28,983 nt of DNA, from IMG/VR virus record IMGVR_UViG_3300020193_000953, positions 1 to 28,983 of that record; one strand, 5' to 3'. Under the pieces are notes generated by a model. It ran no database searches and was not told the origin of the DNA. It saw nothing but the letters and a program-made list of their open reading frames with translations. Position numbers and translations under genes: made by a program. Positions 3,625 to 28,983 of this stretch are shown one piece after another (positions within the stretch are counted from its first letter, which is position 1; each line of letters opens with the position of its first letter). This DNA comes from a virus.

Positions 3625-5195
3625 TCTTCTTCAGCAGTTACTAGCCAGATACTAACATCATTATCCGAAAAATTAAACCCAGATTTCAAAAGTTGTGCGG
3701 CTTGTTCGTAAGTTATTTCGCCCTTGTTAAATTTTCTTACAATTCGCTGTATATTCTGCATCTGCATACCCTTTAAATTTTTTAGAGCATCATTTACCTG
3801 CACATCCTGCGTAGTGCCAGGTAAAGCAGTATTCACAGGCTCAATATACGTTATCTCTACACCCGGGACGTTTTTAGATACAAATTTCCTTTTTTCATCC
3901 GGACTCAACACTTCCCAAAACTTATCTTCGACGGTTACCGAGTTATTAACCGGATTAAACGGTTTTATTTTCACTTTTTGAAAAACAGGAACCGCAAGAT
4001 TTGGTAACAGGATGTTATTGTAAAATTGTTCAAGCTTTTTTCTTTGCTTTTCAGTACGGCTGTGCATTAGTTCAGTAGCCTTTTTAAAGCTCTCACCATC
4101 CGACCCCAAACTATTAGCCTGCTGCGGAAGGTTGGCAAGGATCGCAGGAACTTTCGTAGCAATCGTTATCCCACGGATTGTATCAAGTAATGTACCTGAT
4201 AATACGTCGTAATTGGTGTTTGTTGGGAAAGCCTGAAGCGTAGGTAACTGATCTTTACTAGCCCCCCATATTGTAAACACACTGCCAGCTTTCGAATGCC
4301 CTGAAAAATTAGTAGACATCCTATTATTAAAGTCCTCTCCTACGGTGGTTCCGTCGTGTTCACTTGATTCTATACCATCTATAATCGTTTTTCTAACGTA
4401 TTCTGGTGAATCACATGCTGCGTCTGGATCACCGATAAGAGACAAAAGAACGCTTTGAAAAAATCCGTTGTCAAGGTTTGAAGCGTGAAAACTTTGAATT
4501 TTACCATCCACGTAAATCCATTTTTTCCCAGTCCAATACTTTGGTACTGAGTAGAATTTATACGGGCTTCTCAGATAATTAAAATAGTATATCTGACCTA
4601 AGTAATCGTTGCCTTTTTCACTGTACTCATTAAGTACCTTTTTTTTATCAAACTCTGTATAATTTTTGCTGTCGGCTGGGTTAAATAACTCCGTGCCAAA
4701 ATAAGGGTTCACCTTAAAACTTGTAATCAAGCTAGACTTACGATTTGTATTTCTGCAAAACCGCGCCGTTTCAATCGGCACATTGAATGCAGATACAATA
4801 CCTGCACTATTGTTATACTTAAAATTTACCGCAAAACTTTCAAGCTTTGAAAGTGATTCTGAAAATGTGGTATGTAAATCAAAAAGGGTAGTACCCTCCG
4901 TATCAATAACTATACTTTCTAATGCAGGATCAGTAAATCCAGATCCGGTAATAAAGTCTGACACAACGTCCAAACAACTTGTAGTCGTCGGGCTTTCTTC
5001 AATCGCATTTAAAATGAGCAATGGCAAGTCGTCATTATCACCCCACTTTATCGTTTGTGTGTCGCTCCGTGTCTGCGTATCCTTCTGCGGACTTCTTACC
5101 AATGCCTCCGGATTACTGGTTATGCGATGGGCACTGAATCCAGTACTATTTCTAAACTTCTTATCTCTTGGATTGAATTTTTTTTCCACCGGCAT
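3621..5195 (-). CDS. Phage portal protein
   Basis: 524 residues, near the usual portal size. It has the expected features: a loose charged N-terminus, an early segment on choosing polypeptide sites (SCLDVVSDFITGSGF), a domain near 310-400 with ITIATKVPAILANLP and a long helix (SFKKATELMHSRTEKQRKKLEQFYNNILLPNL) typical of the portal stem and wing. The C-terminus holds a helical region (NLKGMQMQNIQRIVRKFNKGEITYEQA). The portal forms the dodecameric DNA gate at one capsid vertex. Unusually, it lies about 20 kb from the terminase genes, after the glycosylation cassette, and has its own promoter (5200-5245). The ATG at 5195 sits 4 bases after a TAAATTTG box, so the message may be nearly leaderless. 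Confidence 0.78.
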   Translation of the reverse strand: MPVEKKFNPRDKKFRNSTGFSAHRITSNPEALVRSPQKDTQTRSDTQTIKWGDNDDLPLLILNAIEESPTTTSCLDVVSDFITGSGFTDPALESIVIDTEGTTLFDLHTTFSESLSKLESFAVNFKYNNSAGIVSAFNVPIETARFCRNTNRKSSLITSFKVNPYFGTELFNPADSKNYTEFDKKKVLNEYSEKGNDYLGQIYYFNYLRSPYKFYSVPKYWTGKKWIYVDGKIQSFHASNLDNGFFQSVLLSLIGDPDAACDSPEYVRKTIIDGIESSEHDGTTVGEDFNNRMSTNFSGHSKAGSVFTIWGASKDQLPTLQAFPTNTNYDVLSGTLLDTIRGITIATKVPAILANLPQQANSLGSDGESFKKATELMHSRTEKQRKKLEQFYNNILLPNLAVPVFQKVKIKPFNPVNNSVTVEDKFWEVLSPDEKRKFVSKNVPGVEITYIEPVNTALPGTTQDVQVNDALKNLKGMQMQNIQRIVRKFNKGEITYEQAAQLLKSGFNFSDNDVSIWLVTAEEE

Positions 5196-5199
5196 GATA

Positions 5200-5245
5200 C
5201 AAATTTAATGGATATTCATTTTTAAGTAGTGACAACAGTTGTCAC
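5200..5245 (-). promoter_or_regulatory. Late promoter for portal block: palindrome plus -7 box
   Basis: The perfect palindrome GTGACAACAGTTGTCAC fills 5229-5245, with a single-base centre. On the minus strand, 21 bases downstream, is TAAATTTG (5207-5200), an exact match to the Bacteroidota -7 consensus TAnnTTTG. The portal ATG follows after 4 bases. There is no TTTG at the -33 position; the palindrome occupies that place. The same arrangement with the same spacing occurs before the protease-capsid gene. The stop codon of the Cys-rich gene (5242-5244) lies inside the palindrome. Confidence 0.65.
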
Positions 5246-5499
5246 CATAACCCCAGATCACATGACTCTTCTTTTATTCTCGGCTTTGTAGAAATCGGAC
5301 ACCCACATTCTACGCAAACCCCGTACTTATTCGAACCACACGGACGGCATATTTTACGACGCTCCTTTGCGTAGTCCGGATCAAATTGGACAGCTAACCA
5401 ATACCAAGCAGTGATAATGTTTTTGATTTTTTTAATCGATCGCTGAAATCGGCTCTTTTTCGATCCTCCGTGTGTAGGTAATGTTCCCCTAGGTTCCAT
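5242..5499 (-). CDS. Cys-rich small protein, probable zinc ribbon
   Basis: 85 residues. The C-terminal third carries six cysteines: C51-x2-C54, C62-x2-C65-x-C67 and C80, ending in DLGLW. Small proteins of this pattern (CxxC...CxxCGC...C..W, possibly the DUF6171 group) are frequent next to glycosyltransferases in phage genomes; zinc binding is likely but the role is unknown. The N-terminal 30 residues are strongly basic. The ATG at 5499 makes the gene overlap the end of the glycosyltransferase gene by 106 bases, which is long for this phage. Either the overlap is genuine or translation starts further in at a non-ATG codon. The stop lies within the portal promoter palindrome. Confidence 0.6.
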   Translation of the reverse strand: MEPRGTLPTHGGSKKSRFQRSIKKIKNIITAWYWLAVQFDPDYAKERRKICRPCGSNKYGVCVECGCPISTKPRIKEESCDLGLW

Positions 5500-6119
5500 C
5501 TTCTATTCAAATCTGATAATCTTTTAACATACTTTTCATGCCTGCGTAATAGACGATCTATACCACCAATGGCCCTATAATGTAGAAGAGCGTAGGTTTC
5601 TTCAGAAAATTGGATATTGCCTACCGGCCTGGCTTCATGGCATCCATAGATATAGGCAATCTCTTTTACCGCCTCTGGCTTGAAGCATACCAACTTAGAA
5701 TACGAATCATCTTTAAATCCGGTTACGATTTCAAGAAAGGAATCAACGGGCATATCATTAGAGTACATGTTGTATCCCTGAGTACGCAACATAGTCGCCC
5801 CTTTTAAAGCCTCCTGTTTAAATAGAAAAGATATGTCCTCATGGAACAGTATTTCATCACAATCACACACGATAACCCAATCCGCATCTGAATTTTTCCA
5901 ACAGTTATTTTTTACCTTAATGTACTCCCCATCACAAAGCATCCCTGGTATACCAAACTTTACAACCTCACACCCCATTGATTTGGCGATTAGGTCGCTT
6001 CCGTCATCGCTGTAATTGTCGTATATGACAATCCGATCACAAAATTTTTTATAATGTGAAACCGTTAGAGCGATAATATCCGCTTCATTCCAGTTGATAA
6101 TATGAGCTTCTATCTTCAT
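5394..6119 (-). CDS. Glycosyltransferase, GT2-like (GT-A fold)
   Basis: 241 residues. The N-terminus (IINWNEADIIALTVSHY, then VIYDNYSDDGS) is the nucleotide-sugar binding start of GT2-like enzymes that act on glycans. The metal-binding DxD is D86-C-D88 in WVIVCDCDE. The middle has YNMYSNDMP and a conserved HEARPVG that fits the acceptor side. No membrane segment, so the enzyme is cytoplasmic. It overlaps the methyltransferase upstream by 4 bases and ends over the Cys-rich gene. It would add a sugar to a glycan, protein or modified base; donor and acceptor cannot be told from the sequence. Confidence 0.75.
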   Translation of the reverse strand: MKIEAHIINWNEADIIALTVSHYKKFCDRIVIYDNYSDDGSDLIAKSMGCEVVKFGIPGMLCDGEYIKVKNNCWKNSDADWVIVCDCDEILFHEDISFLFKQEALKGATMLRTQGYNMYSNDMPVDSFLEIVTGFKDDSYSKLVCFKPEAVKEIAYIYGCHEARPVGNIQFSEETYALLHYRAIGGIDRLLRRHEKYVKRLSDLNRRWNLGEHYLHTEDRKRADFSDRLKKSKTLSLLGIG

Positions 6120-6646
6120 ACTTTTATAAAGTAAAACCCTGCATCGTCATTCTTATGCTCTGATATAACATTGATTGTATACTTGCCTTTGCAAAACTCT
6201 ATGACAGCCTGATTAACTCCGTACGCATTGTTTAAGAAGTCGTGCCCTGCCACAATACCGCCTTTTTTTACTTTAGGTGTCCACGCCTCCAGATCTTTCT
6301 TGACGCATTCGTAACTATGACAAGCATCTATATACACCATGTCTAAAGTACCGTCTGTAACTTCTTTTGCCATATCCCAGCTAATACCGCGAAGTACAAT
6401 AACGTTGTCTTTGTATTCCGAAACTCTGTGCATAGCTTCATCAAAATTCTTGTCGTGCCACGACTGATCAAAAGCTCCGTCGCCTCTTTGTGTAGGGATT
6501 GTTTCCCAATTATCAACCATATATAGAATACCCGATGGCCACCTCAATATGTCAAGGCTGAACAATCCCTCAGCACACCCAATTTCAGCAACGATAGGGT
6601 TTGCTGGCAATAGCTTGTATAATTGTGATCTGTATCTTATTTCCAT
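6116..6646 (-). CDS. Class I SAM-dependent methyltransferase
   Basis: From the ATG at 6646 the protein has 176 residues. A longer frame from 6730 would overlap the HNH gene by 62 bases with an unlikely N-terminal extension. Motif I is VAEIGCAEG (residues 19-27), followed by the acidic ribose-binding strand YMVDNWE. The TLDMVYIDACHSYECV segment and VKKGGIVAGHDF are typical of the Methyltransf_24 / sugar O-methyltransferase group. It is probably an O-methyltransferase acting on a glycan or small substrate. It overlaps the following glycosyltransferase by ATGA and comes 22 bases after the HNH gene. Confidence 0.75.
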   Translation of the reverse strand: MEIRYRSQLYKLLPANPIVAEIGCAEGLFSLDILRWPSGILYMVDNWETIPTQRGDGAFDQSWHDKNFDEAMHRVSEYKDNVIVLRGISWDMAKEVTDGTLDMVYIDACHSYECVKKDLEAWTPKVKKGGIVAGHDFLNNAYGVNQAVIEFCKGKYTINVISEHKNDDAGFYFIKV

Positions 6647-6668
6647 AATGAGAATAATCTTTTTTGTT

Positions 6669-7157
6669 TCATATATGTTTCCAGCTTTTTCTATTAAGGA
6701 TTGCAGAAATATTTGATTGAGTGACTCCATACATAGAAGCTATTTGACTCTCTGTTTTATCAGGAAACAACGCACGAATATTAATTACATCTGATTCCAC
6801 CAATTTTGAATGGATACATTTTGATCCAGAAACAGACCCTCCACGTGAACGCTTTTTATTATGCCTATCAGCAATATTATCCGCCTGAGTTCCTAAAAAT
6901 AAGTGATCAGGGTTAACGCATGCTGGATTATCACAGGTGTGTAATACTGAAAGTTCATCAATATTATAATGCTCTTTAAAAATCCAATAGGATACCCTAT
7001 GGGCTGTAACTACCTTATTACTTATTAATGACGCCTTCTGAATCCCATATCCATCAGCGTTAATAGATGCGCCCCAAATCCAACATCCGGTATTTGGTTC
7101 TGGATATGATTTTCTAATAATTTTTTCTTTTAAATCTTGCTCAGTTAGTTTTTTCAT
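6669..7157 (-). CDS. HNH endonuclease, free-standing homing type
   Basis: 162 residues. The N-terminal CWIWGASINADGYG and AHRVSYWIF segments lead to the HNH core: VLHTCDNPACVNPDHLFLG (H73, C75, C80, N82, H85), the HNH_3-type fold found in phage homing endonucleases. The C-terminus carries a helix-turn-helix (SQIASMYGVTQSNISAIL) that would read DNA sequence. It interrupts the glycosylation cassette between a GT25 and a methyltransferase gene, with only a 2-base gap to the upstream gene stop. That fits insertion of a selfish element. No intron or inteln boundary is seen, so it appears free-standing. It would nick or cut DNA at a specific site in related phages lacking it. Confidence 0.85.
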   Translation of the reverse strand: MKKLTEQDLKEKIIRKSYPEPNTGCWIWGASINADGYGIQKASLISNKVVTAHRVSYWIFKEHYNIDELSVLHTCDNPACVNPDHLFLGTQADNIADRHNKKRSRGGSVSGSKCIHSKLVESDVINIRALFPDKTESQIASMYGVTQSNISAILNRKSWKHI

Positions 7158-7159
7158 TT

Positions 7160-7951
7160 TTATCCTGCCCAGTTAAATGTTGACGGATTAAAGTCAGTCA
7201 TTAAATTTTGGTATACGTAGGCTGAATTTTCATGAGTTCCATTTAATTTTAAGAACCCAGACCAATAGGTAATACCATTACCAATATCCGAAATATTATC
7301 AATTTGACGAACACAACCAGGTACAAAAGAAAAACATTTTAGTTGTGGCTGCAACTTAATAAACAAAAAATCTATACCTATCGACTCATGTATATGCTGG
7401 TCAAACATATTCAGTATCTTCTGAATAGAATTAACATTCACGATATAGGCGAAAGTAGCAAATGCACCGAATGTTCTTATCATCCTTGGATCATCGGTTG
7501 TCTCACAATCGCGTCCTAACTCTGCACTGCAATTATTACGCATGTCTTTTGAACCACCTATACAATGCCAGTACGGAGGTATATGGAATGAAGCCCCTAG
7601 CCATATAACATCCCACTCGTGAGTATCAGACCATTTTGATATGTAGTCCATTCGCTCGTTAAAGTCTTCGCAGAAAACTAAATCATCCTCCATGACAAAA
7701 GCATGCTTGCCAACATTAAGTGCGTCCTTCATCACTTGAACCTGCGAAAAGTGGCAACCTATTGCGCCCTGCGTACGCCTAAACATAGTACCAACCTGCT
7801 TAGGTGTTGCGATCTTTCTTTCGATTACGTCTTCAGGACGAAGGCCACGAGTTCTAACGGCATTTAATCCTATTCTATTTAACTGCTCGGTCATGTGCGA
7901 AAGCCTATCCACGCGATGATCCATGTTTACAAATGATGCGTAGTATTCCAT
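7160..7951 (-). CDS. Glycosyltransferase family 25
   Basis: 263 residues. The start YASFVNMDHRVDRLSHM matches the family 25 opening. The GAIGCHFSQVQVM segment (62-74) is the family's signature for acceptor-side positioning, and FVMEDDLVF contains the metal-binding acidic cluster E88-D89-D90. GT25 enzymes act in LPS outer-core synthesis and in hydroxylysine galactosylation. Cytoplasmic, no membrane span. It shares its first base with the stop of the FkbM methyltransferase upstream (TAATG), so the two are translationally coupled. Substrate unknown. Confidence 0.85.
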   Translation of the reverse strand: MEYYASFVNMDHRVDRLSHMTEQLNRIGLNAVRTRGLRPEDVIERKIATPKQVGTMFRRTQGAIGCHFSQVQVMKDALNVGKHAFVMEDDLVFCEDFNERMDYISKWSDTHEWDVIWLGASFHIPPYWHCIGGSKDMRNNCSAELGRDCETTDDPRMIRTFGAFATFAYIVNVNSIQKILNMFDQHIHESIGIDFLFIKLQPQLKCFSFVPGCVRQIDNISDIGNGITYWSGFLKLNGTHENSAYVYQNLMTDFNPSTFNWAG

Positions 7952-8583
7952 TATGCGTATTTAAATGACCCATTGATATATAGTGCATCCCCCCAGCCAG
8001 TATTTCCGCACCAGAAAGTTTCTACACGTCGGAAATTAAAACCGATCATGTATAAATCGATGTCATCTACAAGCGCGCAACCTTCATATAATCGTTCCTT
8101 ATTAACCTCCAGATACGCAGCTTTAAATCCTTTGAGCAAATCACCCATTCCACGCATGGCCATAAGTTCAGCCCCTTGCAAATCAATGTTAAGAAAATCA
8201 ACACCCGATAAATCAAGGCCCAGCGAATCAATACGGTGCATCCTTAGAGACTTGTCTTCAACATAATGTACTTCAGGGTGTACGACTGCATGTGTCCCTA
8301 AATCTAATACTGAACTAGATTGGCTTCCGTTGTTGGATATGTGGAATATTGCATCCTTGTTTTCGTCGCCAATAAGGTAATTCAACGCAATTGCATCCGG
8401 ATTATTGCTTACATTATTTTTAAGCTTAACAAAAATATCTGGATTACCCTCAATCCAAATTTGTTTTTTAATACCAAGCTCATTATAAACGGGAGCCTCT
8501 TCACCAACGTTTGCCCCAATGTGTAGGACACCATTAAATTTCAGGTTATACTTTGGGAATAAATTTCTAAAGTCTATCAGCAT
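7951..8583 (-). CDS. FkbM-family methyltransferase
   Basis: About 210 residues from the ATG at 8583, one base after the upstream stop; an in-frame ATG at 8604 would overlap the previous gene by 20 bases. Motif I is VLHIGANVGEE and the ribose-binding strand is IWIEGNPDIF. The characteristic FkbM segment DFLNIDLQGAELMAMRGM follows, then a strand AYLEVNKERLYEG. FkbM enzymes O-methylate sugars and polyketides, and are frequent in capsule and LPS clusters, where a terminal methyl group can stop chain growth or hide an epitope. It lies between another methyltransferase and the GT25. Confidence 0.85.
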   Translation of the reverse strand: MLIDFRNLFPKYNLKFNGVLHIGANVGEEAPVYNELGIKKQIWIEGNPDIFVKLKNNVSNNPDAIALNYLIGDENKDAIFHISNNGSQSSSVLDLGTHAVVHPEVHYVEDKSLRMHRIDSLGLDLSGVDFLNIDLQGAELMAMRGMGDLLKGFKAAYLEVNKERLYEGCALVDDIDLYMIGFNFRRVETFWCGNTGWGDALYINGSFKYA

Positions 8584-8584
8584 A

Positions 8585-9160
8585 TTATCGTGGTTTAAAT
8601 CCATTACTCATTTCAACTTCCCAAACTCCATATCCTAACGCTGTAGGATAAATTTGCATGAATCCAGGTTCAATAAGCTCATTCAATGCCTGCCGTACTT
8701 CCGGGTTTTCACCGTCATTTGTTGCGTCATGGCCTGCCAAAATTCTATTAGGCAACACTTTCCGATACCACAATCTGACCTCCGCTTTAGTCTGTTCGTA
8801 CTTATGCGATGAATCAAGAAAAACAAAGTCAAAGTATTCATCTGGGAATTTACAAGAGGCATCAAGGCTACTAACACCTAAGCCCCTCGTATCAATAAAA
8901 TTAGATAGCCCACTTGCGTACACGTGATTTAAAATAGTTTTCAATTGATCCTCACGGCCATAGTCTAAGTTATCTACCAGGCAAAGCTTAAAGCTCTTCC
9001 CCATGTTTGCCATCGCTTCAGCAAGATATATCGCGCTCTTTCCGTCTGCTACTCCAACTTCGCAAAGATTTGCACCGCTAGGCATTATTTCAGCAATTCG
9101 ATTATAGTACGCGGAGAAATCAAACATTTCTCCAGGTATTGTTTCCCAATATTTTCTCAT
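8585..9160 (-). CDS. Class I SAM methyltransferase (Methyltransf_24 type)
   Basis: 191 residues. Motif I LCEVGVADGKSA (32-43), acidic strand CLVDNLDYG, and the YFDFVFLDSSHKYEQTKAEV segment with RILAGHDATND are typical of the sugar/macrolide O-methyltransferase-like group. The His-Asp pair in AGHD may hold a divalent metal. It overlaps the epimerase upstream (ATGA) and is followed immediately by the FkbM gene, so three cassette genes form one translational unit. Likely a second glycan O-methyltransferase; the target is not known. Confidence 0.78.
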   Translation of the reverse strand: MRKYWETIPGEMFDFSAYYNRIAEIMPSGANLCEVGVADGKSAIYLAEAMANMGKSFKLCLVDNLDYGREDQLKTILNHVYASGLSNFIDTRGLGVSSLDASCKFPDEYFDFVFLDSSHKYEQTKAEVRLWYRKVLPNRILAGHDATNDGENPEVRQALNELIEPGFMQIYPTALGYGVWEVEMSNGFKPR

Positions 9161-10191
9161 TCGTATTGTGATTTAATCCAGTTATAAGTTTTTTCAAGAC
9201 CTTCACGAAGTGTATGCTTTGGCTTCCAATTAAGAACCTGCTCAATCAATGTGTTATCAGAATTTCTACCCATTACACCCATAGGCCCGGTAATGTTTTT
9301 AATCGTAACCTCTTTACCAGAAAATTCAATGGCCATCTTAGCAAGCTGGTTGATAGTTACTACCTCTTCACTTCCGATATTAATAGGCTCTTTAAATTCT
9401 GATTCCATAAGTAATCGAACTGCGTCTATGCAATCGTCTATGTACAGGAATGACCGTGTTTGATGTCCAGTGCCCCAAACCTCCAATTGATTGTGATCTT
9501 TGCTTGTCGTTGCGTGTAGCAATTCTACAACCTTGCGACACATCGCGGCAGGTGCTTTTTCTCGACCTCCCTTATACGTTCCTTCTGGCCCAAATATATT
9601 ATGGAATCTAGCTATCCGAACATCTATTCCTTTATTACGAGCAAAGGCAAGGTATAGCCTTTCGCTAAACAACTTTTCCCATCCGTATTCTGAATCAGGG
9701 TTGCCGGGGTATGCGTCGCTTTCCTTTAGTGCTGATACGTTGTATTCATTCTGCAATTCCTGCGGATACATACACGCAGATGAAGAATAGAATATTTTTC
9801 CTTTGAACTTTTGCGCCGCTAAACTATCAAGAATATTCAAGTTAATTAATGCCGAATCGTGCATTATATCACTGTCATTTTCACCGGTAAAAACATATCC
9901 AGCACCACCCATTTGACAAGCAAAAGAATATACTTCATCAAATTGAATACTATTTTCAAACGGTAAAGGATGATATGTATATTTTTTTAAATCATTAAGT
10001 CTTAAGGTTGCATCTACTCTTGATTTATCACGTAAATCCTCAATGATAAATTCATCACAAAATTCTAAAGGATTACCATAATCATATTCTTTAATGTCAA
10101 CAACACGTACCCAGTACCCAAGTTGTTTTAATCTTCTCGCCATGTGGTGACCAATAAATCCTGATCCACCTAAAACTAAAGCTGTCTTCAT
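9157..10191 (-). CDS. NAD-dependent epimerase, GDP-mannose 3,5-epimerase-like
   Basis: 344 residues, extended SDR family. It has the NAD motif GGSGFIG (8-14), the catalytic Tyr-Lys pair Y169-x3-K173 (SEYGWEKLF), and SSSACMYPQ with Cys140, the position of the acid/base cysteine in GDP-mannose 3,5-epimerase. The segment IFGPEGTYKGGREKAPAAMCRK (199-220) closely follows the plant GME signature. ACQMGGAGYV at 91-100 also fits. Plant GME turns GDP-D-mannose into GDP-L-galactose. That product could feed the neighbouring GT11-type transferase. The gene ends in an ATGA overlap with the next methyltransferase, and its start is 1 base after the GT11 stop. Confidence 0.83.
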   Translation of the reverse strand: MKTALVLGGSGFIGHHMARRLKQLGYWVRVVDIKEYDYGNPLEFCDEFIIEDLRDKSRVDATLRLNDLKKYTYHPLPFENSIQFDEVYSFACQMGGAGYVFTGENDSDIMHDSALINLNILDSLAAQKFKGKIFYSSSACMYPQELQNEYNVSALKESDAYPGNPDSEYGWEKLFSERLYLAFARNKGIDVRIARFHNIFGPEGTYKGGREKAPAAMCRKVVELLHATTSKDHNQLEVWGTGHQTRSFLYIDDCIDAVRLLMESEFKEPINIGSEEVVTINQLAKMAIEFSGKEVTIKNITGPMGVMGRNSDNTLIEQVLNWKPKHTLREGLEKTYNWIKSQYE

Positions 10192-10192
10192 A

Positions 10193-10987
10193 TTATCTAA
10201 ATTTTATTTGTATCCACTCATTAGGTATTAAATCAACGCAATCCTGCTTTACTCCGCTTTCTAAGCCGAACCAATTACCACGTGTATGGGAAGGGCTTAT
10301 AACTATCTTATCCGGATTATGACCAAGATATGCACCCCACCAGCTAAAGGTACTATTAGCTATAATATGATGCCCACATGATGCCATTAGTTCAAGGTCT
10401 TGCAGTTCTGTTCGGCTTTCTGAATATCCCCGTATTCCATCAATGCAATGAAAATTATCCTTACACCATTTTATATCATCGGAAAATACAATGAAATTAT
10501 TAAATCCAATATTAGAAAAATGTTCCGTTGCAATCTTTAGGTAGTTAAGATCAATAGGAGGGAAACTGCCTGAATGCTGAACATAATCACCACGGCGTAC
10601 ATGAATACTTACATAGTCTTCGTACCCTGGAATATGTTTTAATTTGAATACGTCTTTTACTTCATCCTTGCAGTGTTCAAAGTATTTCCACGACTGAAAG
10701 AACCCAAACAACATAACATTATCACCTATGTTTGGTATATCATGGAAATCAAAATGGCATAAGTCTTTGTGTCTATTGTGGATATGACAATGTTCATTTA
10801 GATGCTCTTCGTAGCGCTGGTAACGATTATTACACCTTGGCAGGTTAGGGTATACACGATGTATGGATGATTCTCTTGCATCATCTGGTACACCCCATTC
10901 ATAACCGTACTTTCGAGCGTACCCAATTGCCGCAGCAATTTGAAACATACTATTACCTAATCGACCGATAAATTTTGTTGTTACCAT
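10193..10987 (-). CDS. Glycosyltransferase family 11 (alpha-1,2-fucosyltransferase-like)
   Basis: 264 residues. The N-terminus KFIGRLGNSMFQIAAAIGYA is the GT11 opening. The donor-binding motif HVRRGDYV is at 129-136, and the C-terminal ANSTFSWWGAYLG (210-222) matches the conserved SNSTFSWW block. Family members move L-fucose from GDP-fucose to the 2-OH of galactose. Here the next gene is a GDP-mannose 3,5-epimerase-like enzyme that would give GDP-L-galactose, a fucose analogue with a 6-OH, so L-galactose may be the sugar moved. The gene overlaps the GT2 upstream (TAATG). Cytoplasmic. Confidence 0.87.
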   Translation of the reverse strand: MVTTKFIGRLGNSMFQIAAAIGYARKYGYEWGVPDDARESSIHRVYPNLPRCNNRYQRYEEHLNEHCHIHNRHKDLCHFDFHDIPNIGDNVMLFGFFQSWKYFEHCKDEVKDVFKLKHIPGYEDYVSIHVRRGDYVQHSGSFPPIDLNYLKIATEHFSNIGFNNFIVFSDDIKWCKDNFHCIDGIRGYSESRTELQDLELMASCGHHIIANSTFSWWGAYLGHNPDKIVISPSHTRGNWFGLESGVKQDCVDLIPNEWIQIKFR

Positions 10988-11685
10988 TAACGCATCTGTT
11001 TTAATTTCTCAATAATTGAATCATGAAACCCCTGTGGCGTTCTCCGAACATTATTACGGTAGTGGCTACCATCGTGAACACGGTGTTCGTATTCAAGAGA
11101 AGGCTCAACGTATATTGAATGGCCAGCCTCCAGCCATCGGTAATTTTGGTATAGCGAATCGCTTGTTACAGGGTCTATAGTACCATCCCAAACACGCAAA
11201 TATTCATCACGATTCACAAAATAGTTCATCGCGTTAAGCATCGTTTGGAAAGTTGGATCTGATATGTATTCAGCAACATTATGTTTTGAAATTATAAAAC
11301 CAGCATACTTTGTAAAATTAAAATGAGGTTTAGCAAAAGCCGGATGAATAATAATGCCTTTACTAAGTCTAAATGGCGTACATAGTAAAACCAATATATA
11401 CATTTTAGTTATTATATTATCGCTATCTAAAATAATCACCCATTCATTTGTTGCAAGCTCTACAGCGCGTTTCTTGTTCCGGTAACAGTCAAGATTACTT
11501 TTGTTACGGTATAGCTTTACTTTGGGTATGTCTTTCACATGCTCTTGTATTTCTTCAAATACTTCCATGCTTGAACAGTCGTCAACAATAACTATCTCAG
11601 AGATTATATTGTCGTCTACAACTTGTGCGAACGATTCGAACAACATGCCGGTACGCTCGTATGTTGGTATGCAAAGTGAAATCAT
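10987..11685 (-). CDS. Glycosyltransferase family 2
   Basis: 232 residues. It opens with ISLCIPTYERTGMLFE, continues to IVIVDDCSS (31-39), and carries the metal-binding D87-S-D89 in WVIILDSDN: all standard GT2 marks (GT-A fold). The C-terminal DPVTSDSLYQNYRWLEAG segment resembles the acceptor side of family members. No membrane segment. It starts directly after a 35-residue membrane peptide gene and couples to the GT11 gene. It likely adds one sugar of the glycan built by this cassette. Confidence 0.85.
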   Translation of the reverse strand: MISLCIPTYERTGMLFESFAQVVDDNIISEIVIVDDCSSMEVFEEIQEHVKDIPKVKLYRNKSNLDCYRNKKRAVELATNEWVIILDSDNIITKMYILVLLCTPFRLSKGIIIHPAFAKPHFNFTKYAGFIISKHNVAEYISDPTFQTMLNAMNYFVNRDEYLRVWDGTIDPVTSDSLYQNYRWLEAGHSIYVEPSLEYEHRVHDGSHYRNNVRRTPQGFHDSIIEKLKQMR

Positions 11686-11686
11686 A

Positions 11687-11794
11687 TCAGAATATTATTG
11701 AAATAACGAGTACAATAACCGCAAGTATCATGTTTAGTATTAGTAACCCAGCACTAACCTCCACTTTGTCTTCAAAAAAATCTTTCAATTTCAT
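11687..11794 (-). CDS. 35-residue single-span membrane peptide
   Basis: Read directly from the minus strand: ATG at 11794, overlapping the stop of the gene before it (ATGA), and TGA at 11687. The peptide has a charged N-terminus (MKLKDFFEDKVEVS) then about 20 hydrophobic residues ending in IIF. It would be a tail-anchored membrane miniprotein. The GT2 ATG follows within 2 bases of the stop. Precise coupling on both sides supports translation. Unknown function; it might tether cassette enzymes to the membrane. Confidence 0.6.
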   Translation of the reverse strand: MKLKDFFEDKVEVSAGLLILNMILAVIVLVISIIF

Positions 11795-11961
11795 AATTTA
11801 CTTAAATTGAATAAACCTATTACCATATCTTGTAGTATTCTGTCATCTTTAATTATAGCCCACGATTTACCACGTGGATAATATAAAATATTATTACTTA
11901 CGTTTATTATGTAATAATCATCACCACCATAACTCCATAGTATCCGATAACGAGGTTTCAT
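11791..11961 (-). CDS. 56-residue hypothetical protein
   Basis: Minus-strand frame with ATG at 11961 overlapping the upstream stop (ATGA at 11958-11961) and TGA at 11791, itself overlapping the next ATG. The peptide is rich in Tyr and Ile (YRILWSYGGDDYYIINVSNN) and looks like a small beta-sheet protein. No family recognised. Gapless fit between two genes is the main evidence that it is real. Confidence 0.6.
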   Translation of the reverse strand: MKPRYRILWSYGGDDYYIINVSNNILYYPRGKSWAIIKDDRILQDMVIGLFNLSKL

Positions 11962-12620
11962 AAATTGACAATGTTAAATCGTTTCCCTTCTATCCAAATT
12001 CTAAACAACCTTTCCAAGATGAAAGGCGCAATCGGCCAATCATTCATTTGTAATTTAGAAAGTGTCGACTCTATTTTTTTTCTGTCTTTAACCTTGTTAA
12101 TATAACCTGAAGGAGCAAGGAATACTTCGTGACCATCCATAAAGGCCATACACGGCACTAACACATCACGTACATACTCATGATATATCTCACGCCTGGC
12201 TATGAAGTGATTCTCATAGATAGCATCTCCGATAATCTCTTCCGGTATTTTAATAAATTGCCTCAATACTCCTATAGCATCATCCCATGCTTTGCCGTGC
12301 CAATTAGAACCCATGTTCATGATGTGATGTGATTTCGATCTTGGAGTTAGCACGGCTATATCAAACTCAGTACAGAGTATTTTTTCCTCCGTTAATTCCT
12401 GCCTATTTAATATTACCTCACTCATTCCAGAACCTCTTTTTTCCCTCAATCGCCATGAACACACAGAAATATAATCCGCATTCGATGCAGGAACTAAACT
12501 AGCAATAACGCTATTCTCAAAGTAAATTGTGAGATCTGTATTAAGATGTACTTTGGCGAATGGATACAGTTCATTACGTTGCGCATCGTCATATATTATT
12601 TGATAAAAGTCAAGACTCAT
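11958..12620 (-). CDS. Uncharacterised cassette protein, possible glycosyltransferase-like
   Basis: 220 residues. The sequence starts DFYQIIYDDAQRNELYPFAKVHLN and has YISVCSWRLREKRG, DIAVLTPRSKSHHIMNMGSNWHGKAWDDAI and FMDGHEVFLAPSGYI. I recognise this layout as one recurring in glycosylation regions of Bacteroidota phages but cannot name the family. The ordered Asp, His and Trp residues would suit an enzyme, and the first gene of the cassette is a natural place for a sugar-transfer or synthesis step. No signal peptide or membrane span. It overlaps the upstream membrane gene by 4 bases. Confidence 0.6.
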   Translation of the reverse strand: MSLDFYQIIYDDAQRNELYPFAKVHLNTDLTIYFENSVIASLVPASNADYISVCSWRLREKRGSGMSEVILNRQELTEEKILCTEFDIAVLTPRSKSHHIMNMGSNWHGKAWDDAIGVLRQFIKIPEEIIGDAIYENHFIARREIYHEYVRDVLVPCMAFMDGHEVFLAPSGYINKVKDRKKIESTLSKLQMNDWPIAPFILERLFRIWIEGKRFNIVNL

Positions 12621-12931
12621 TTAGAAACAACCTCAAAATCAATAACATCAAACGCTAAATATCCAAATTCATTGGAGAATGGGCCGCTGCTAGAATCATA
12701 CCATAACCCAGTAGTATAAGATCTTTTAACTATTTTTATAACTGCGTCCTTTGGTAGATTATATACTTTAGTCATTGTAAATCCACTATCATAATATAAT
12801 TTTAGTGTCACAGTATGCCTTTCCTTTGTTGGGAAAAAATTAGCGTTATGCCATAGGTAAAATACAGCACTAGATAACGTTAAAAACATCATCATGCTAA
12901 GAAATAGTGTACGATATTTATAATTAATCAT
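12617..12931 (-). CDS. Membrane-anchored small protein
   Basis: 104 residues. After a basic start (MINYKYR), residues 8-27 form one hydrophobic span, followed by about 75 residues of a polar, beta-rich domain. It may be a signal-anchored protein with the domain in the periplasm. It overlaps both neighbours by 4-8 bases. No family recognised. Position between the Xis-like gene block and the glycosylation cassette says little about the function. Confidence 0.6.
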   Translation of the reverse strand: MINYKYRTLFLSMMMFLTLSSAVFYLWHNANFFPTKERHTVTLKLYYDSGFTMTKVYNLPKDAVIKIVKRSYTTGLWYDSSSGPFSNEFGYLAFDVIDFEVVSK

Positions 12932-13118
12932 TTCTTATCCAAGCAGTTACACGCCTCCAGCATCCTGAGCAATCCATTTCAACACGAACACCTTGCGCTT
13001 GCTTGTACAATTTAAAAGCATGCTTCCAGGCTACTGAATCAGCATTAGGTTTATTAAGCTCTCCAGACGATCGCATATATTCGCGCAATTGCGATACATC
13101 CATTAAATTAATGTCCAT
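12924..13118 (-). CDS. Small hypothetical protein with a CxxC motif
   Basis: 64 residues from the ATG at 13118 (GTG at 13121 and an ATG at 13103, 4 bases after the upstream stop, are alternatives). The protein has an amphipathic helical start (DVSQLREYM), a central basic helix (WKHAFKLYKQAQG) and a C-terminal CSGCWRRV. The CxxC may bind metal but one pair is not enough for a site in a monomer. It resembles small DNA-linked phage proteins only in a general way. It overlaps the HTH gene upstream by 11 bases and the membrane gene downstream by 8. Confidence 0.55.
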   Translation of the reverse strand: MDINLMDVSQLREYMRSSGELNKPNADSVAWKHAFKLYKQAQGVRVEMDCSGCWRRVTAWIRND

Positions 13119-13263
13119 CACTTATCACAATTATCATTAGTCCACAACACATTCTAGCCTTCACCCCTTCAGGTAATTGCTTTTGCTTAATCCATCGGTA
13201 CACAGTCATTTTTGACTTCCCTATCGACTTAGCGTAATCTATAACTGATAGTTTTTTTGCCAT
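13108..13263 (-). CDS. Xis/MerR-type helix-turn-helix protein
   Basis: 51 residues from the ATG at 13263 (a longer frame to 13296 runs into the hairpin and is rejected). The sequence SVIDYAKSIGKSKMTVYRWIKQKQLPEGVKA is a classic winged-helix excisionase/MerR-type HTH: first helix, turn, recognition helix with YRW, then the PEGVKA loop leading to the wing. It probably binds DNA as a regulator or recombination directionality factor. A promoter with an operator-like palindrome (13340-13372) and a terminator hairpin (13274-13306) precede it, hinting at repression plus attenuation. Confidence 0.72.
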   Translation of the reverse strand: MAKKLSVIDYAKSIGKSKMTVYRWIKQKQLPEGVKARMCCGLMIIVISDGH

Positions 13264-13273
13264 AGTTATTTTT

Positions 13274-13306
13274 AAAAAAAGGCCACCTGCAACCATTCAG
13301 GTGGCC
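13274..13306 (-). terminator. Leader terminator/attenuator before the HTH gene
   Basis: GGCCACCTG (minus strand, 13306-13298) and its complement CAGGTGGCC (13289-13281) form a perfect 9-bp GC-rich stem with an 8-base loop, followed by seven T (13280-13274). This is a textbook intrinsic terminator for minus-strand transcription. It lies between the promoter (-7 box 13347-13340) and the ATG at 13263, so transcripts from that promoter should stop after about 60 bases unless something prevents it. Confidence 0.8.
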
Positions 13307-13339
13307 CAAACCTCCCTACCAAAATGAAAATCTCTCTCA

Positions 13340-13372
13340 CAAATGTATATAAAATGTTACCACAGTAACAAA
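13340..13372 (-). promoter_or_regulatory. Promoter with embedded operator before the HTH gene
   Basis: On the minus strand, TTTG (13372-13369) is followed after 21 bases by TACATTTG (13347-13340), matching the Bacteroidota -33 and -7 elements at acceptable spacing. The spacer holds the palindrome TGTTACCACAGTAACA (13355-13370). A protein bound there would block polymerase, so this looks like a repressed promoter. A related palindrome lies at 26834-26849. Confidence 0.65.
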
Positions 13373-13379
13373 TTATTTC

Positions 13380-13409
13380 AAAAATAATACCGGAATAAAT
13401 CCGGTATTA
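13380..13409 (-). terminator. Intrinsic terminator after the tail tube gene
   Basis: A 9-bp stem (TAATACCGG, 13385-13393, with CCGGTATTA, 13401-13409) and 7-base loop, followed on the minus strand by five T (13384-13380). It starts 4 bases after the stop of the tail tube gene and would end the capsid/tail tube transcript. Confidence 0.75.
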
Positions 13410-13413
13410 CTAC

Positions 13414-13965
13414 TTAAATCACTCTGGCATCCAAATAAGCGACTGTTGTTGCAACATCGGTTACCAAAAATCGCAACGGTAACGTACTTTCAACACCTGA
13501 TAAGTTGATGGTCGTAGACACATCGTCACCCTGACCTACCCCAGTAGAGTTAACTGGCCCTGGATCATACGACATACCAACCCCATAACCGGCTATGAAA
13601 AACTGGTTATTATTGTTTCTATACACTATGAATACATCTTCCGCTTGTATAAGCTTCTGTACTTCAACATCATCTTGCGTAGACAAAGCCAATAGCTTGA
13701 TTGCCGCCTTGTGTACTATGGATCTGTTACCCCCCGCCGACTTTGTGGCCTCTGAACTGAATTGATGACTGAATTTAACCCCCTCAAACTTCACAAGCCC
13801 CGAATAAGCTTTGAAAGACATTGAGGTAATAAATCCTGTTTGGGCGGTTGAAAAATTACTGGCAAGGTCACTAACGTAACCTAGCCAGAAAGTCTTATCA
13901 GCACCACTTGCAAAATTCAGGTCGCCACAAGAAACACTTATTCCTAACTGTGCTTTACATCCCAT
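13414..13965 (-). CDS. Probable major tail (tube) protein
   Basis: 183 residues, mostly beta-strand with small residues and few charged clusters. It opens with LGISVSCGDLNFASG, then KTFWLGYVSDL, and later has SMSFKAYSGLVKFEGVKFSHQFSSEA. This order (start with Cys-Gly-Asp, then a strand pair with an aromatic, then a long strand ending in SSEA) is one I associate with tail tube proteins of Bacteroidota phages. It sits 13 bases after the protease-capsid fusion and ahead of a terminator, so it shares the capsid's high late expression, as a tube protein needs. The call is from pattern and position. Confidence 0.55.
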   Translation of the reverse strand: MGCKAQLGISVSCGDLNFASGADKTFWLGYVSDLASNFSTAQTGFITSMSFKAYSGLVKFEGVKFSHQFSSEATKSAGGNRSIVHKAAIKLLALSTQDDVEVQKLIQAEDVFIVYRNNNNQFFIAGYGVGMSYDPGPVNSTGVGQGDDVSTTINLSGVESTLPLRFLVTDVATTVAYLDARVI

Positions 13966-13978
13966 GACAATACACGTT

Positions 13979-16222
13979 TTAGTAAGAAATAGCTGTCAAA
14001 TCACAGTGGATACTAGGCAAGAAGCCCATAGTCATATTAGACCGGTAGTATCTCTTGTTGTCTTTTTTCTCAAACCATGAATCAATTTTTTCCATGTCTG
14101 CAGTATCCTCAACACCCAACACGTGGTTTTCCTTGATCGTGAAAGCAATCAAGTGCTTAGTAGTAGCCGCCAACGGGTTGGTTGAATCAGAAAGATGATC
14201 GTCCCAGATACTAATAGGTTTCACTGGGATACCTAAGTATGTAAGGTTGCTGATACCCTGGATTGCGTTTGTGAATTGCTGTTCAGTAACCGCACCAGTT
14301 CCAATCAAACTATTGTAGTAGTTTTCCCACACTGATCTTGTTACCAAAAATTGACCCTTACCACCGTCGATTGCTTGTTGTTTCAAAAGTAGTGGGCTGT
14401 TATTAACTATGTTCTGGAAGTAGCTCAACGCTGTTCCTGCCGATAATGTACCTGTACCAAGTGACGAACCTATGCGGTTAACGCAATAGTTTGAAGCTCC
14501 TGAAGAGTCAATTAATGCTTGCCAGAATCCGTCAAACTGATTCCAGTCTGCGCTGGAGCTTGAAAGATCAGCGAATGATACACGTCTCCAAATGTCACGA
14601 CGCAAAGCATCTTTTAACAGGTCAACGATCATCGTGTCGATTGGCGTCCCTGCTGGGTCAAAGGATTCATTACCGGATTTCAAATACTGCTCTGCCAGAA
14701 CATTGTACTTACCTTGCAATTGTTCGGTGAAGTCATCCTTGCACCATCCCTCATACATTTGAAAAGGTTTCAATTGAATACCCTTCGATGTAAGGTTAAA
14801 AGATGAATTTGTGATAGCCTGATCGCATCCGGTGTAAGGCTTCAGGATCTTGTTCATTACAGGTGCGATGTGGTACTTCTTGCTATTCTTAGCCCCCAGG
14901 TCAAGATTGAATACATCCGCAAGTGCAGGAGATCCAATTGTAGGCTTAAAGAAAAGATCTGTACTCAGCAGTCCATCATAGGTGTAGTTGAACTCCACCT
15001 CTAAAATAGAAGCTGCATTGGGGCCACCTTCGCGGTAGGACGAAAAGCTTGTGCCATCGGCAAAGCACCCATTCTTATACCGCTTTTCAAGCCACGGCAT
15101 ATTCTCGGCCAGGAACGTACGAGATGCACGTATCGCCATCTCTTTATTAGTACTCTTATTCATAATGCTTACAGGTTTTCTTACGGCCTCTGCGCCGGAA
15201 TCTGGTTTTGAATTGTCACCTATTACTTTTTTACTTTCTGCTTCAAGATCTTTTTTGATAGCCTGCATCGCTGCGGCTGCGTCACTTAGCTTTGTTTCAA
15301 GCTCTACTTTCTGTGCGTCTGCATTGGCTGTCGCAGCCTTAGCCGCATCAAGCTGAGCATTTAAAGCGGCTATCTGTTGCTCTAATTTAGCCTGCTCCGT
15401 CATTGGTGGAGTCACTGAAGTGATAACACCACCAGCAACCACAACGACGCTACCGTCTGCCATCTGGTGTTCACCATCCGGCGCAGGCTGTCCGTTGACC
15501 GTTACAGTCTTACCCACAAGTTGTCCGTCCTCCGATTGAACAACCAAAACAGTACCATCGGCTTTGGATAGATCCAGTGCCTTTGGCCCTTTAACGAACT
15601 GTGAAAGTTCATTGAGCTTTGCATCAATCGCGTTCAATGCTTTAGAAAAAATGTTGTCTTTGTTGTCTTCCATTTCCTTACTGCCGAATGCAACGGCTTT
15701 TAATTTTTTGTATTGATCGTCCTCAAGAATACGCCCACCTATTTCATCTGCAAATCCAAAATCAACCGCTTCTTTTGCGGTCATCCTTGTTTCTGCTTTC
15801 ATCATCTGCTTAATAACATCAACAGTCTTACCCGATCGTTGTGCGTAGGCTTCTGCCATTGCATTTTCAATCGACAGTAATTCGTCTGCTCCGCTTCTAA
15901 GCATGTCCGCGTCACCTCTCAACCCTTGTGATGGGTTATGTATCATCCAGATTGAGGGGTCAAGTATCACTATCTTTTTTCCAGCCAAAGCAATGAATGT
16001 CGCCATAGATTGAGCTTCGCCTTCTATCCGGCTCTCAATTTCTACGCCCAATGACTTCAGCAAGTGATACCCCTTATATCCGCCGTATACACTACCGCCT
16101 GGGGATTGAATATGATGTATGATTTTTTTTGTGTTGGCAGGCATACCGCCTAACTGCTGCTTTAACACCAGGTGATAATCTTCTCCTATAATGTCATCAG
16201 TGAATATGTGATAATCTGCCAC
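13979..16222 (-). CDS. ClpP-type prohead protease / linker / major capsid protein fusion
   Basis: 747 residues, GTG start at 16222. Residues 1-170 are a ClpP/S14-type protease: SPGGSVYGG (40-48), nucleophile Ser72 in EAQSMA, His95 in WMIHNPS; Glu143 lies at the position of the family's Asp. Residues about 210-272 form a small beta-rich segment (GQPAPDGEHQMADGS...GGVITS). Residues 274-335 are a charged coiled coil, the scaffold-like delta region. From about 345 on, the HK97-type major capsid domain begins (MAIRASRTFLAENMPWLEKRY) and runs to the end. One chain thus holds protease, scaffold and capsid, which must be cut during head maturation. Own late promoter (16240-16285). Confidence 0.85.
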   Translation of the reverse strand: MADYHIFTDDIIGEDYHLVLKQQLGGMPANTKKIIHHIQSPGGSVYGGYKGYHLLKSLGVEIESRIEGEAQSMATFIALAGKKIVILDPSIWMIHNPSQGLRGDADMLRSGADELLSIENAMAEAYAQRSGKTVDVIKQMMKAETRMTAKEAVDFGFADEIGGRILEDDQYKKLKAVAFGSKEMEDNKDNIFSKALNAIDAKLNELSQFVKGPKALDLSKADGTVLVVQSEDGQLVGKTVTVNGQPAPDGEHQMADGSVVVVAGGVITSVTPPMTEQAKLEQQIAALNAQLDAAKAATANADAQKVELETKLSDAAAAMQAIKKDLEAESKKVIGDNSKPDSGAEAVRKPVSIMNKSTNKEMAIRASRTFLAENMPWLEKRYKNGCFADGTSFSSYREGGPNAASILEVEFNYTYDGLLSTDLFFKPTIGSPALADVFNLDLGAKNSKKYHIAPVMNKILKPYTGCDQAITNSSFNLTSKGIQLKPFQMYEGWCKDDFTEQLQGKYNVLAEQYLKSGNESFDPAGTPIDTMIVDLLKDALRRDIWRRVSFADLSSSSADWNQFDGFWQALIDSSGASNYCVNRIGSSLGTGTLSAGTALSYFQNIVNNSPLLLKQQAIDGGKGQFLVTRSVWENYYNSLIGTGAVTEQQFTNAIQGISNLTYLGIPVKPISIWDDHLSDSTNPLAATTKHLIAFTIKENHVLGVEDTADMEKIDSWFEKKDNKRYYRSNMTMGFLPSIHCDLTAISY

Positions 16223-26409: not shown

Positions 26410-26784
26410 CTACTTTATCTCCATGCCTGTAATCTGTACACTTCCGGATAGCTCCGTTTGTTGGTTAATCTCCTGACGGTCAGACCATCCCATATTCTTG
26501 AGGGCGAAAACTAATCCGACTACGTTAGTATCACGGTTATAGATCATGTGTTGTTCATAGACAGCCTCCACCTTGGAAGTAGCATCCATTATGATCTCAT
26601 GATAATCATCGCGGTCTTTGTAGTTGTATAGGGTCTGCCTGTCTATTTTTAGGGCCACAGCCAGCCCCGCTAATGTTGGCTTATCGTTGCCGTTAAAATA
26701 CGTGTCAATTACTGTTTGTAGCTCTTCTGGGGTCTTAAAAATAAGTTTACGACCGCCTCGGTACTTCTGTGCTTTCTCTCCCAT
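26410..26784 (-). CDS. terS: Terminase small subunit
   Basis: 124 residues. Basic start, FKTPEELQTVIDTYF, then an HTH TLAGLAVALKIDRQTLYNYKDRDDYHEII that contacts DNA, a helical oligomerisation segment, and the conserved VFALKNMGWSDRQE before the C-terminus. This pattern is typical of small terminases of Bacteroidota phages. It would recognise the packaging site and recruit the large subunit. First gene of the minus-strand block; ATG at 26784, 4 bases after a TATCTTTG box. Confidence 0.87.
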   Translation of the reverse strand: MGEKAQKYRGGRKLIFKTPEELQTVIDTYFNGNDKPTLAGLAVALKIDRQTLYNYKDRDDYHEIIMDATSKVEAVYEQHMIYNRDTNVVGLVFALKNMGWSDRQEINQQTELSGSVQITGMEIK

Positions 26785-26788
26785 GTGA

Positions 26789-26796
26789 CAAAGATA
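26789..26796 (-). promoter_or_regulatory. Candidate -7 box for the terminase block
   Basis: Minus strand TATCTTTG (26796-26789) matches TAnnTTTG exactly. The ATG is 4 bases downstream, the same distance as for the portal, so the mRNA could be leaderless or nearly so. I see no TTTG at the expected -33 position and no GTGACA palindrome. A second palindrome (26834-26849) lies 37 bases upstream. Confidence 0.5.
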
Positions 26797-26833
26797 ACAT
26801 ATTTACGAAAAATAATCTCATTGGTTATCAACA

Positions 26834-26849
26834 TGTTACAGTAGTAACG
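26834..26849. promoter_or_regulatory. Operator-like palindrome in the divergent region
   Basis: TGTTAC-AGTA-GTAACG, a near perfect inverted repeat with a 4-base centre. It has the same layout as TGTTAC-CACA-GTAACA inside the promoter at 13340-13372. It lies between the terminase start and the plus-strand promoter, so one protein could control both sides. Confidence 0.55.
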
Positions 26850-26862
26850 TAAAATAATTCAC

Positions 26863-26879
26863 AACTTTGTAACAAAGTT
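26863..26879. promoter_or_regulatory. 17-bp palindrome upstream of the plus-strand promoter
   Basis: AACTTTGTAACAAAGTT is a perfect palindrome around a single central base. It ends 14 bases before TATATTTG (26894-26901), overlapping the area where a -33 element (TTTG, 26866-26869) would be. Its core TTTGTAACAAA resembles TTTGTGTAACAAA that overlaps the -7 boxes at 26898 and 28795. It is probably an operator. Confidence 0.6.
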
Positions 26880-26893
26880 ATCAAATACTCGTG

Positions 26894-26911
26894 TATATTT
26901 GTGTAACAAAA
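26894..26911 (+). promoter_or_regulatory. Plus-strand promoter with overlapping TTTGT/ACAAA repeat
   Basis: TATATTTG matches the -7 consensus exactly. The block TATATTTGTGTAACAAAA (18 bases) recurs at 28791-28808. TTTGTGTAACAAA overlaps the -7 box as an imperfect inverted repeat. The start codon at 26923 is about 21 bases after the box. Confidence 0.65.
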
Positions 26912-26922
26912 TAACCAAATAT

Positions 26923-28754: not shown

Positions 28755-28790
28755 TTTGTAATTATGTAACACAATTAGAATATATTCGTT

Positions 28791-28808
28791 TATATTTGTG
28801 TAACAAAA
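28791..28808 (+). promoter_or_regulatory. Second plus-strand promoter, repeat of 26894
   Basis: TATATTTGTGTAACAAAA again, identical over 18 bases to 26894-26911, and preceded by the similar TTCGTT (CTCGTG in the other). The ATG at 28818 follows 19 bases after the box. It would start a second transcript for genes beyond the window. Confidence 0.65.
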
Positions 28809-28817
28809 ACAAAAAAT

Positions 28818-28983
28818 ATGGGAACTGTCAGCTATAACAACATCGAATATGATATCTGGGTTTGTGCACCGGACATACACCTACAATCGCCTGAACAAGA
28901 TATTGTGATCCGTAATGGATATACAGAGGTCGAAGGTGCGGCTATATTGGATAAGGCAATATACGTGAAGGGCTACCGTGGGC
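28818..28983 (+). CDS. Hypothetical protein, cut by right edge
   Basis: Frame from the ATG at 28818 continues to the last base without a stop (55 codons visible). Alpha/beta pattern (YNNIEYDIWVCAPDIHL, EVEGAAILDKAIYVKG). It has its own promoter at 28791. No family can be named from this piece. Confidence 0.6.
   Translation, partial: MGTVSYNNIEYDIWVCAPDIHLQSPEQDIVIRNGYTEVEGAAILDKAIYVKGYRG

Follow-up and report, generated by a model that had tools for sequence, protein, structure and literature searches.

The leader of phage T4 gene 32 is known for a pseudoknot before a phage start codon. In intrinsic-terminator attenuators and terminated 5′ leaders, a promoter, a short leader and an intrinsic terminator precede the first gene, and a strand upstream of the terminator pairs with the terminator region. 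The HK022 put RNA (PMC9378689) mediates antitermination as nascent RNA; it is an element of phage RNA that opens the transcript, and the genes after it lie beyond terminators. Here we describe a locus in a viral DNA of 28,983 nucleotides (the whole of what we call the window) and in its relatives that resembles each of these systems in part. With attenuators the window shares the order of promoter, short leader, intrinsic terminator and first gene; the relatives also share an upstream strand that pairs with the terminator region, for which the window has no partner strand. Unlike in attenuators, the relatives' strand pairs with the loop of the terminator rather than with its stem, so that both helices could coexist, and the element has no leader peptide in a conserved frame and no known ligand. 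The relatives' hairpin differs from the gene 32 leader in having a T-run after it, and host group and sequence are unrelated. Like the put RNA, the relatives' element opens a transcript whose genes lie beyond terminators; unlike there, its second hairpin is terminator-like and pairs with the 5′ element, and the likeness is one of arrangement, with antitermination here a hypothesis only.

Promoter, leader and terminators of the window

The features of the locus, in the order in which they are read on the minus strand, are:

13380–13409, minus strand: terminator T1, downstream of the tail-tube gene (from sequence and a strict scan)
13369–13372, minus strand: −33 element TTTG (from sequence; consensus in PMC7366714)
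13355–13370, no strand assigned: operator-like palindrome TGTTAC-TGTG-GTAACA (from sequence)
13340–13347, minus strand: −7 box TACATTTG, of the form TAnnTTTG (from a consensus box scan)
13274–13335, minus strand: predicted leader RNA of about 62 nt, its 5′ end placed from the −7 box and its 3′ end at T2
13274–13306, minus strand: terminator T2 (from sequence, folding and the strict scan)
13108–13263, minus strand: HTH gene of 51 aa, HTH_17-type (from a profile match and homologue comparison)

The stop codon of the tail-tube gene (13414) precedes T1 on the minus strand. The T1 hairpin (13409–13385) has a perfect 10-bp stem, TAATACCGGA/TCCGGTATTA, and a TTTAT loop, and is followed on the same strand by TTTTT at 13384–13380. 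The T2 hairpin (minus strand, 13306–13281) has a perfect 9-bp stem, GGCCACCTG/CAGGTGGCC, or 10 bp with a terminal G–T pair, an 8-nt loop and a run of seven T residues at 13280–13274, which leaves a gap of 10 nt to the HTH start codon at 13263. Both therefore have the form of an intrinsic terminator, a stable hairpin followed by a T-run. A strict scan of both strands of the whole 28,983-base window (stem of at least 8 Watson–Crick pairs, at least 4 of them GC, and 6 T in 8) returned T1 and T2 and nothing else, against an expectation of 0.09 per strand in order-1 random sequence, or about 0.18 for both strands. A looser scan was about at chance overall (9 found, 6.0 ± 2.4 expected), with T2 at the top of its list. 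The structural (tail) transcript would be expected to end at T1.

The main promoter of Bacteroidota has TTTG near −33 and TAnnTTTG at −7 (PMC7366714). The window has the same two elements at 13372–13340, with a 21-nt spacer between TTTG and TACATTTG, and differs from that sigma-A type in the operator-like palindrome (13370–13355) that overlaps the −33 element and the spacer. Over the entire window TAnnTTTG boxes were about as frequent as chance predicts (36 found, 32.4 expected); intergenic gaps held 9 against 2.1 expected (P = 1.6e-4, an optimistic value, the gaps being A+T-rich). A sigma-70 promoter was rejected: its consensus scan was at chance (22 found, 24.9 expected) and the Bacteroidota consensus fitted better. 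The terminase is nearest to those of phages of Bacteroides, Flavobacterium, Polaribacter and Cellulophaga, and, judged by its sequence, the window is from a virus of Bacteroidota bacteria. The first-pass annotation had called both terminators (the second as strong), the promoter at 13372–13340, the palindrome in its spacer and the HTH start at 13263, and all of these calls were borne out, the palindrome extending over the −33 box as well.

Two further boxes lie close to start codons on the minus strand. At 5196–5245 a TAAATTTG box ends 4 nt short of the portal start codon, with a palindrome, GTGACAACTGTTGTCAC (5229–5245), upstream of it, and at 26784–26796 a TATCTTTG box ends 4 nt before that of the terminase small subunit. 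The portal mRNA is probably leaderless, with an operator-like site, and the terminase small-subunit mRNA is probably leaderless too.

We took the leader to start 5–7 nt downstream of the −7 box. The resulting length agrees with the earlier claim that the promoter's sole product, unless antiterminated, is an RNA of about 60 bases: we predict about 62 nt unless T2 is read through. The full leader folds with −22.5 kcal/mol (z = −2.4), and T2 dominates the fold. Before the 3′ arm of T2 exists, UCAUUUUGGUAGG can pair with CCACCUGAAUGG (−8.7 kcal/mol) in competition with T2. This alternative fold was no better than those of shuffled leaders (p = 0.44), which leaves a built-in antiterminator without statistical support. 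A partner strand for the T2 loop was likewise unsupported in the window leader, the longest match being 4 bp (P = 0.86). By these two values, the window itself shows no sign of a switch. T2 nevertheless lies between TACATTTG and the HTH start, which is the attenuator arrangement of a terminator between a promoter and the first gene of its operon. The minus strand held no further TAnnTTTG box from 13340 to 9598, so that, going by this consensus, expression of the HTH gene and of roughly the first 3.7 kb of the cassette would need passage of T2. Most likely, then, the window makes a terminated leader of about 62 nt, and the HTH/glycosylation operon would depend on read-through of T2.

Leader RNAs of related viruses

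Relatives were found in searches with the capsid protein, a downstream conserved protein (A4, A7) and the tail-tube protein; for the last, a search with one sequence gave no match and an alignment-based search did better. Some two dozen distinct viral contigs had the window's gene order. No close relative of the window was found, nor any DNA-level relative among named phages, and a search of genomes with the capsid alignment gave no prophage relative. Three main layouts were seen at the site, and some contigs had extra reading frames there:

Layout B (promoter-like box, then a leader whose 5′ strand is complementary to the terminal-hairpin loop, then the start codon; n = 14): L004, L005, L006, L012, L014, L015, L016, L017, L028, L030, L031, L036, L076, L018
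Layout W (short leader, plain terminator): window, L019, L020
Layout A (terminator, promoter box, start codon a few bases on): L002, L022, L023, L027, L029, L083, L084, L025
Extra reading frames: L032, L033, L034, L035

L065 is a further, truncated layout B case. In 13 of the 14 layout B relatives the terminal hairpin ends 2–13 nt before the next start codon. The exception is L018, in which the pseudoknot element is followed by a tRNA gene (3658–3731) and another terminator-like hairpin before the next gene begins.

At its longest, the perfect complement of leader and loop (P1) spanned 6–9 bp in the 14 layout B loci, 1–5 bp elsewhere and 4 bp in the window. Its summed length over the 14 loci was 112, against 71.5 ± 3.4 in shuffles (Fisher P = 1e-12), where the shuffles preserve single-base composition only and the rows are partly kin (L031 is close to L036, and L006 to L016). 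Cognate partners outscored 20,000 of 20,000 partner permutations. P1 columns 3–7 were paired in 14/14 loci (with one G–T pair), each with 2 to 4 Watson–Crick types, and the flanking columns 2 and 8 in 13/14; this count uses an ungapped cut picked for complementarity, and the shuffle test, which maximises over all positions, is the fairer one. Compensatory changes thus support P1 pairing in the relatives (combined P about 1e-12). A 5′ hairpin with the P1 strand in its loop was clear in L012, L015, L016, L028 and L018 and weak or absent in the others (combined P = 0.001). In the cases inspected P1 did not overlap the stem of the terminal hairpin (P2), which would allow the two helices to coexist. 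The first-pass annotation had suggested a search for the leader in relatives, and it was the relatives that yielded a folded leader, at the same locus in 14 contigs; the window's own version is without the partner strand.

A covariance model of P2 built from nine rows recovered two members from outside its training set, L076 (E = 7e-5) and the truncated L065 (E = 1e-4). Its best local match in the window was T2, at a weak 10 bits and with 8 bases in place of a 24-position interior. The T2 stem has GCCAC/GTGGC and the relatives' terminal hairpin CCAC/GTGG, and so weak a match leaves common descent with the relatives' element unproven. Since P1 is missing (4 bp, P = 0.86), we did not accept the window as a complete example of the relatives' pseudoknot RNA. 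When viral contigs were scanned for the motif by pattern, six matched, five of them at the same locus and one without comparable pairing; 17 pattern matches in cellular genomes had no comparable layout and were taken as chance. A leader peptide was also rejected: frames are open across the element in L014 and L016, the corresponding frame has stops in L004 and L012, and none is conserved. Transcription would be expected to terminate at the relatives' hairpin, where some T-runs are short.

No Rfam 15 family matched the window at the gathering cut-off, and the matches with E < 1 lay far below the cut-offs. Among 13 relatives' loci the single Rfam match was the tRNA in L018, and the L015 element had no match at E < 1. 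A known RNA family was rejected as the identity of the RNA on these results; the relatives' folded leader RNA is previously uncatalogued, lying outside Rfam. A word search of open-access full text, which is weak evidence, found no paper on it.

In a tail-tube tree, the deepest split drawn had B-type rows on either side. The window paired with L002 (99/97) within a clade of L005, L006, L016 and L019, whose other members mostly carry the element, and this placement among carriers makes loss of P1 in the window's line plausible. The layout label needs several changes on the tree, and 114 of 500 shuffles were as low; with clustering this weak, gain, loss and recombination are indistinguishable.

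Two observations concern individual relatives. Directly behind the leader RNA, L006 encodes a T5orf172/MUG113 (GIY-YIG-like) protein (13074–13577). Upstream of the pseudoknot RNA, L006 (12816–12935) and L016 (3571–3670) also share a second conserved element, made up of ATTGCGCGCCCGTAGTGGCGAT and then a terminator-like hairpin; this may be another structured RNA.

Possible functions of the leader and its terminator

We propose, with moderate confidence, that the window is best explained by a promoter–operator, a short leader and an intrinsic terminator placed directly before an HTH–glycosylation operon whose expression depends on read-through. T1 would stop the structural (tail) transcript; a Bacteroidota-type promoter, with a regulator at the GTAACA palindrome, would start an RNA near 13335 that by default stops at T2 after about 62 nt. 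Expression of the HTH gene and the cassette would need polymerase to pass T2, which would set or gate its level. The site would be functionally equivalent to the conserved leader RNA of the relatives, and perhaps descended from it. In the relatives, covariation supports the pairing of a 5′ strand, which in some of them lies in a small hairpin, with the loop of the terminator-like hairpin before the start codon; the window keeps the terminator and has no recognisable pseudoknot. The folded RNA at the same spot in the relatives suggests a real control point. It counts against this explanation that in several relatives without the element only a few bases separate the promoter box and the start codon. 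The earlier proposal of an attenuated leader is strengthened by the conserved base-paired leader at the same place in relatives and weakened by the want of a supported antiterminator in the window's own leader.

T1 and T2 could instead be plain punctuation that insulates the structural operon and the cassette from each other at their border, with a fixed, unregulated leak through T2 and a leader that has no function. Such a border would suit two strong terminators, a window leader in which we found no supported switch, and the several relatives that have just a terminator and a promoter here. T2, however, stands downstream of the promoter and leaves 10 nt to the start codon, where an insulator would be out of place because it would lower the output of the operon's own promoter, and the hairpin at that place has covarying pairing in 14 relatives. 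On balance we think this reading unlikely. We give distinctly less credence to a stand-alone small phage RNA of about 62 nt, acting in trans on host or phage messages, for which T2 would merely form the 3′ end: the RNA has its own promoter and operator, a strong terminator and a compact size, and relatives encode what would be short terminated RNAs at the same place, but their hairpin is tied to the start codon (2–13 nt), which a trans-acting RNA would not need, and the window leader and the relatives have no common conserved sequence outside the hairpin. Control of ribosome entry rather than termination, by the hairpin (in relatives the pseudoknot) immediately before the start codon, would fit the short or broken T-runs of L014, L016 and L031 but is very improbable, as T2 in the window is a textbook terminator with seven T residues and leaves 10 nt free ahead of the start codon.

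For the read-through-dependent operon that we prefer, the window by itself gives the smaller gain: a clean promoter–leader–terminator arrangement in which any switch would probably require a trans factor. The conserved pairing in the relatives amounts to a structured RNA at a fixed place, absent from Rfam and directly testable in transcript data.

Operator, candidate regulator and glycosylation cassette

Beyond the leader, the following features bear on regulation and on the genes behind T2:

26835–26848, no strand assigned: second exact operator core GTTACN4GTAAC (from a motif search)
12924–13115, minus strand: small protein with CxxC (conserved; in most relatives its gene is the first after the leader)
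5394–12931, minus strand: glycosylation cassette and neighbours (from product scans)

The operator core GTTACNNNNGTAAC has exactly two copies in the window (0.04 expected), one in the 13370–13355 palindrome and the other at 26835–26848, in the divergent region that separates the terminase small subunit from the rightward genes. GTAACA half-sites numbered 7 in intergenic gaps against 1.3 expected (P = 1.7e-4); these half-site and operator statistics are post hoc, having been computed after the palindrome had been noticed. Two rightward promoters have TGTAAC pairs exactly 34 bases apart, at 26868/26902 and 28765/28799. L002, whose HTH protein at the same site is 33% identical to the window's, carries GCAACACGTGTTGC, a perfect palindrome, upstream of its TATATTTG box; L025 has an HTH-like frame and merely a short CAACTGTTG. 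We infer that the HTH protein behind T2 is the obvious candidate regulator of the palindrome. A regulator that reads the GTAACA palindrome probably controls the leader promoter, and it may act at the divergent terminase/early promoters too. The rightward promoters at 26785–26922 and 28755–28818 also have TATATTTGTGTAACAAAA in common.

The HTH protein matched HTH_17 with E = 4.9e-4, below the Pfam cut-off, and no integrase was recognised among the window products scanned, from a record that may be incomplete. The earlier description of this gene as Xis-like is weak on both counts.

We entertain, as a tentative possibility, that the relatives' leaders belong to a leader-RNA family, not described before, of tailed phages of Bacteroidota, and that this family acts as a cis switch for the cassette, by attenuation or RNA-driven antitermination; the window would then have a shortened form of it, rewired to an operator and an HTH regulator that the early/late promoters also use. 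The operator in common points to a single regulator that would link the cassette with the early/late switch. Large glycosylation cassettes are carried by Bacteroidota phages, a group in which the timing of gene expression is little known. In the window, the cassette and its neighbours comprise glycosyltransferases, a fucosyltransferase-type GT11, an epimerase, methyltransferases and an HNH endonuclease.

Several other products of the region have features of their own. The protein family at 12924–13115 (minus strand) and its homologues have a conserved W and CxxC and no match in Pfam or PHROGs. Within the cassette, a 272-base gap at 11686–11957 (minus strand) holds a short open frame, MKLKDFFEDKVEVSAGLLILNMILAVIVLVISIIF, which possibly encodes a one-helix membrane peptide. 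At 13979–16222 (minus strand), a 747-aa protein joins an N-terminal ClpP-type protease to a long conserved C-terminal part, and is possibly a protease–capsid fusion.
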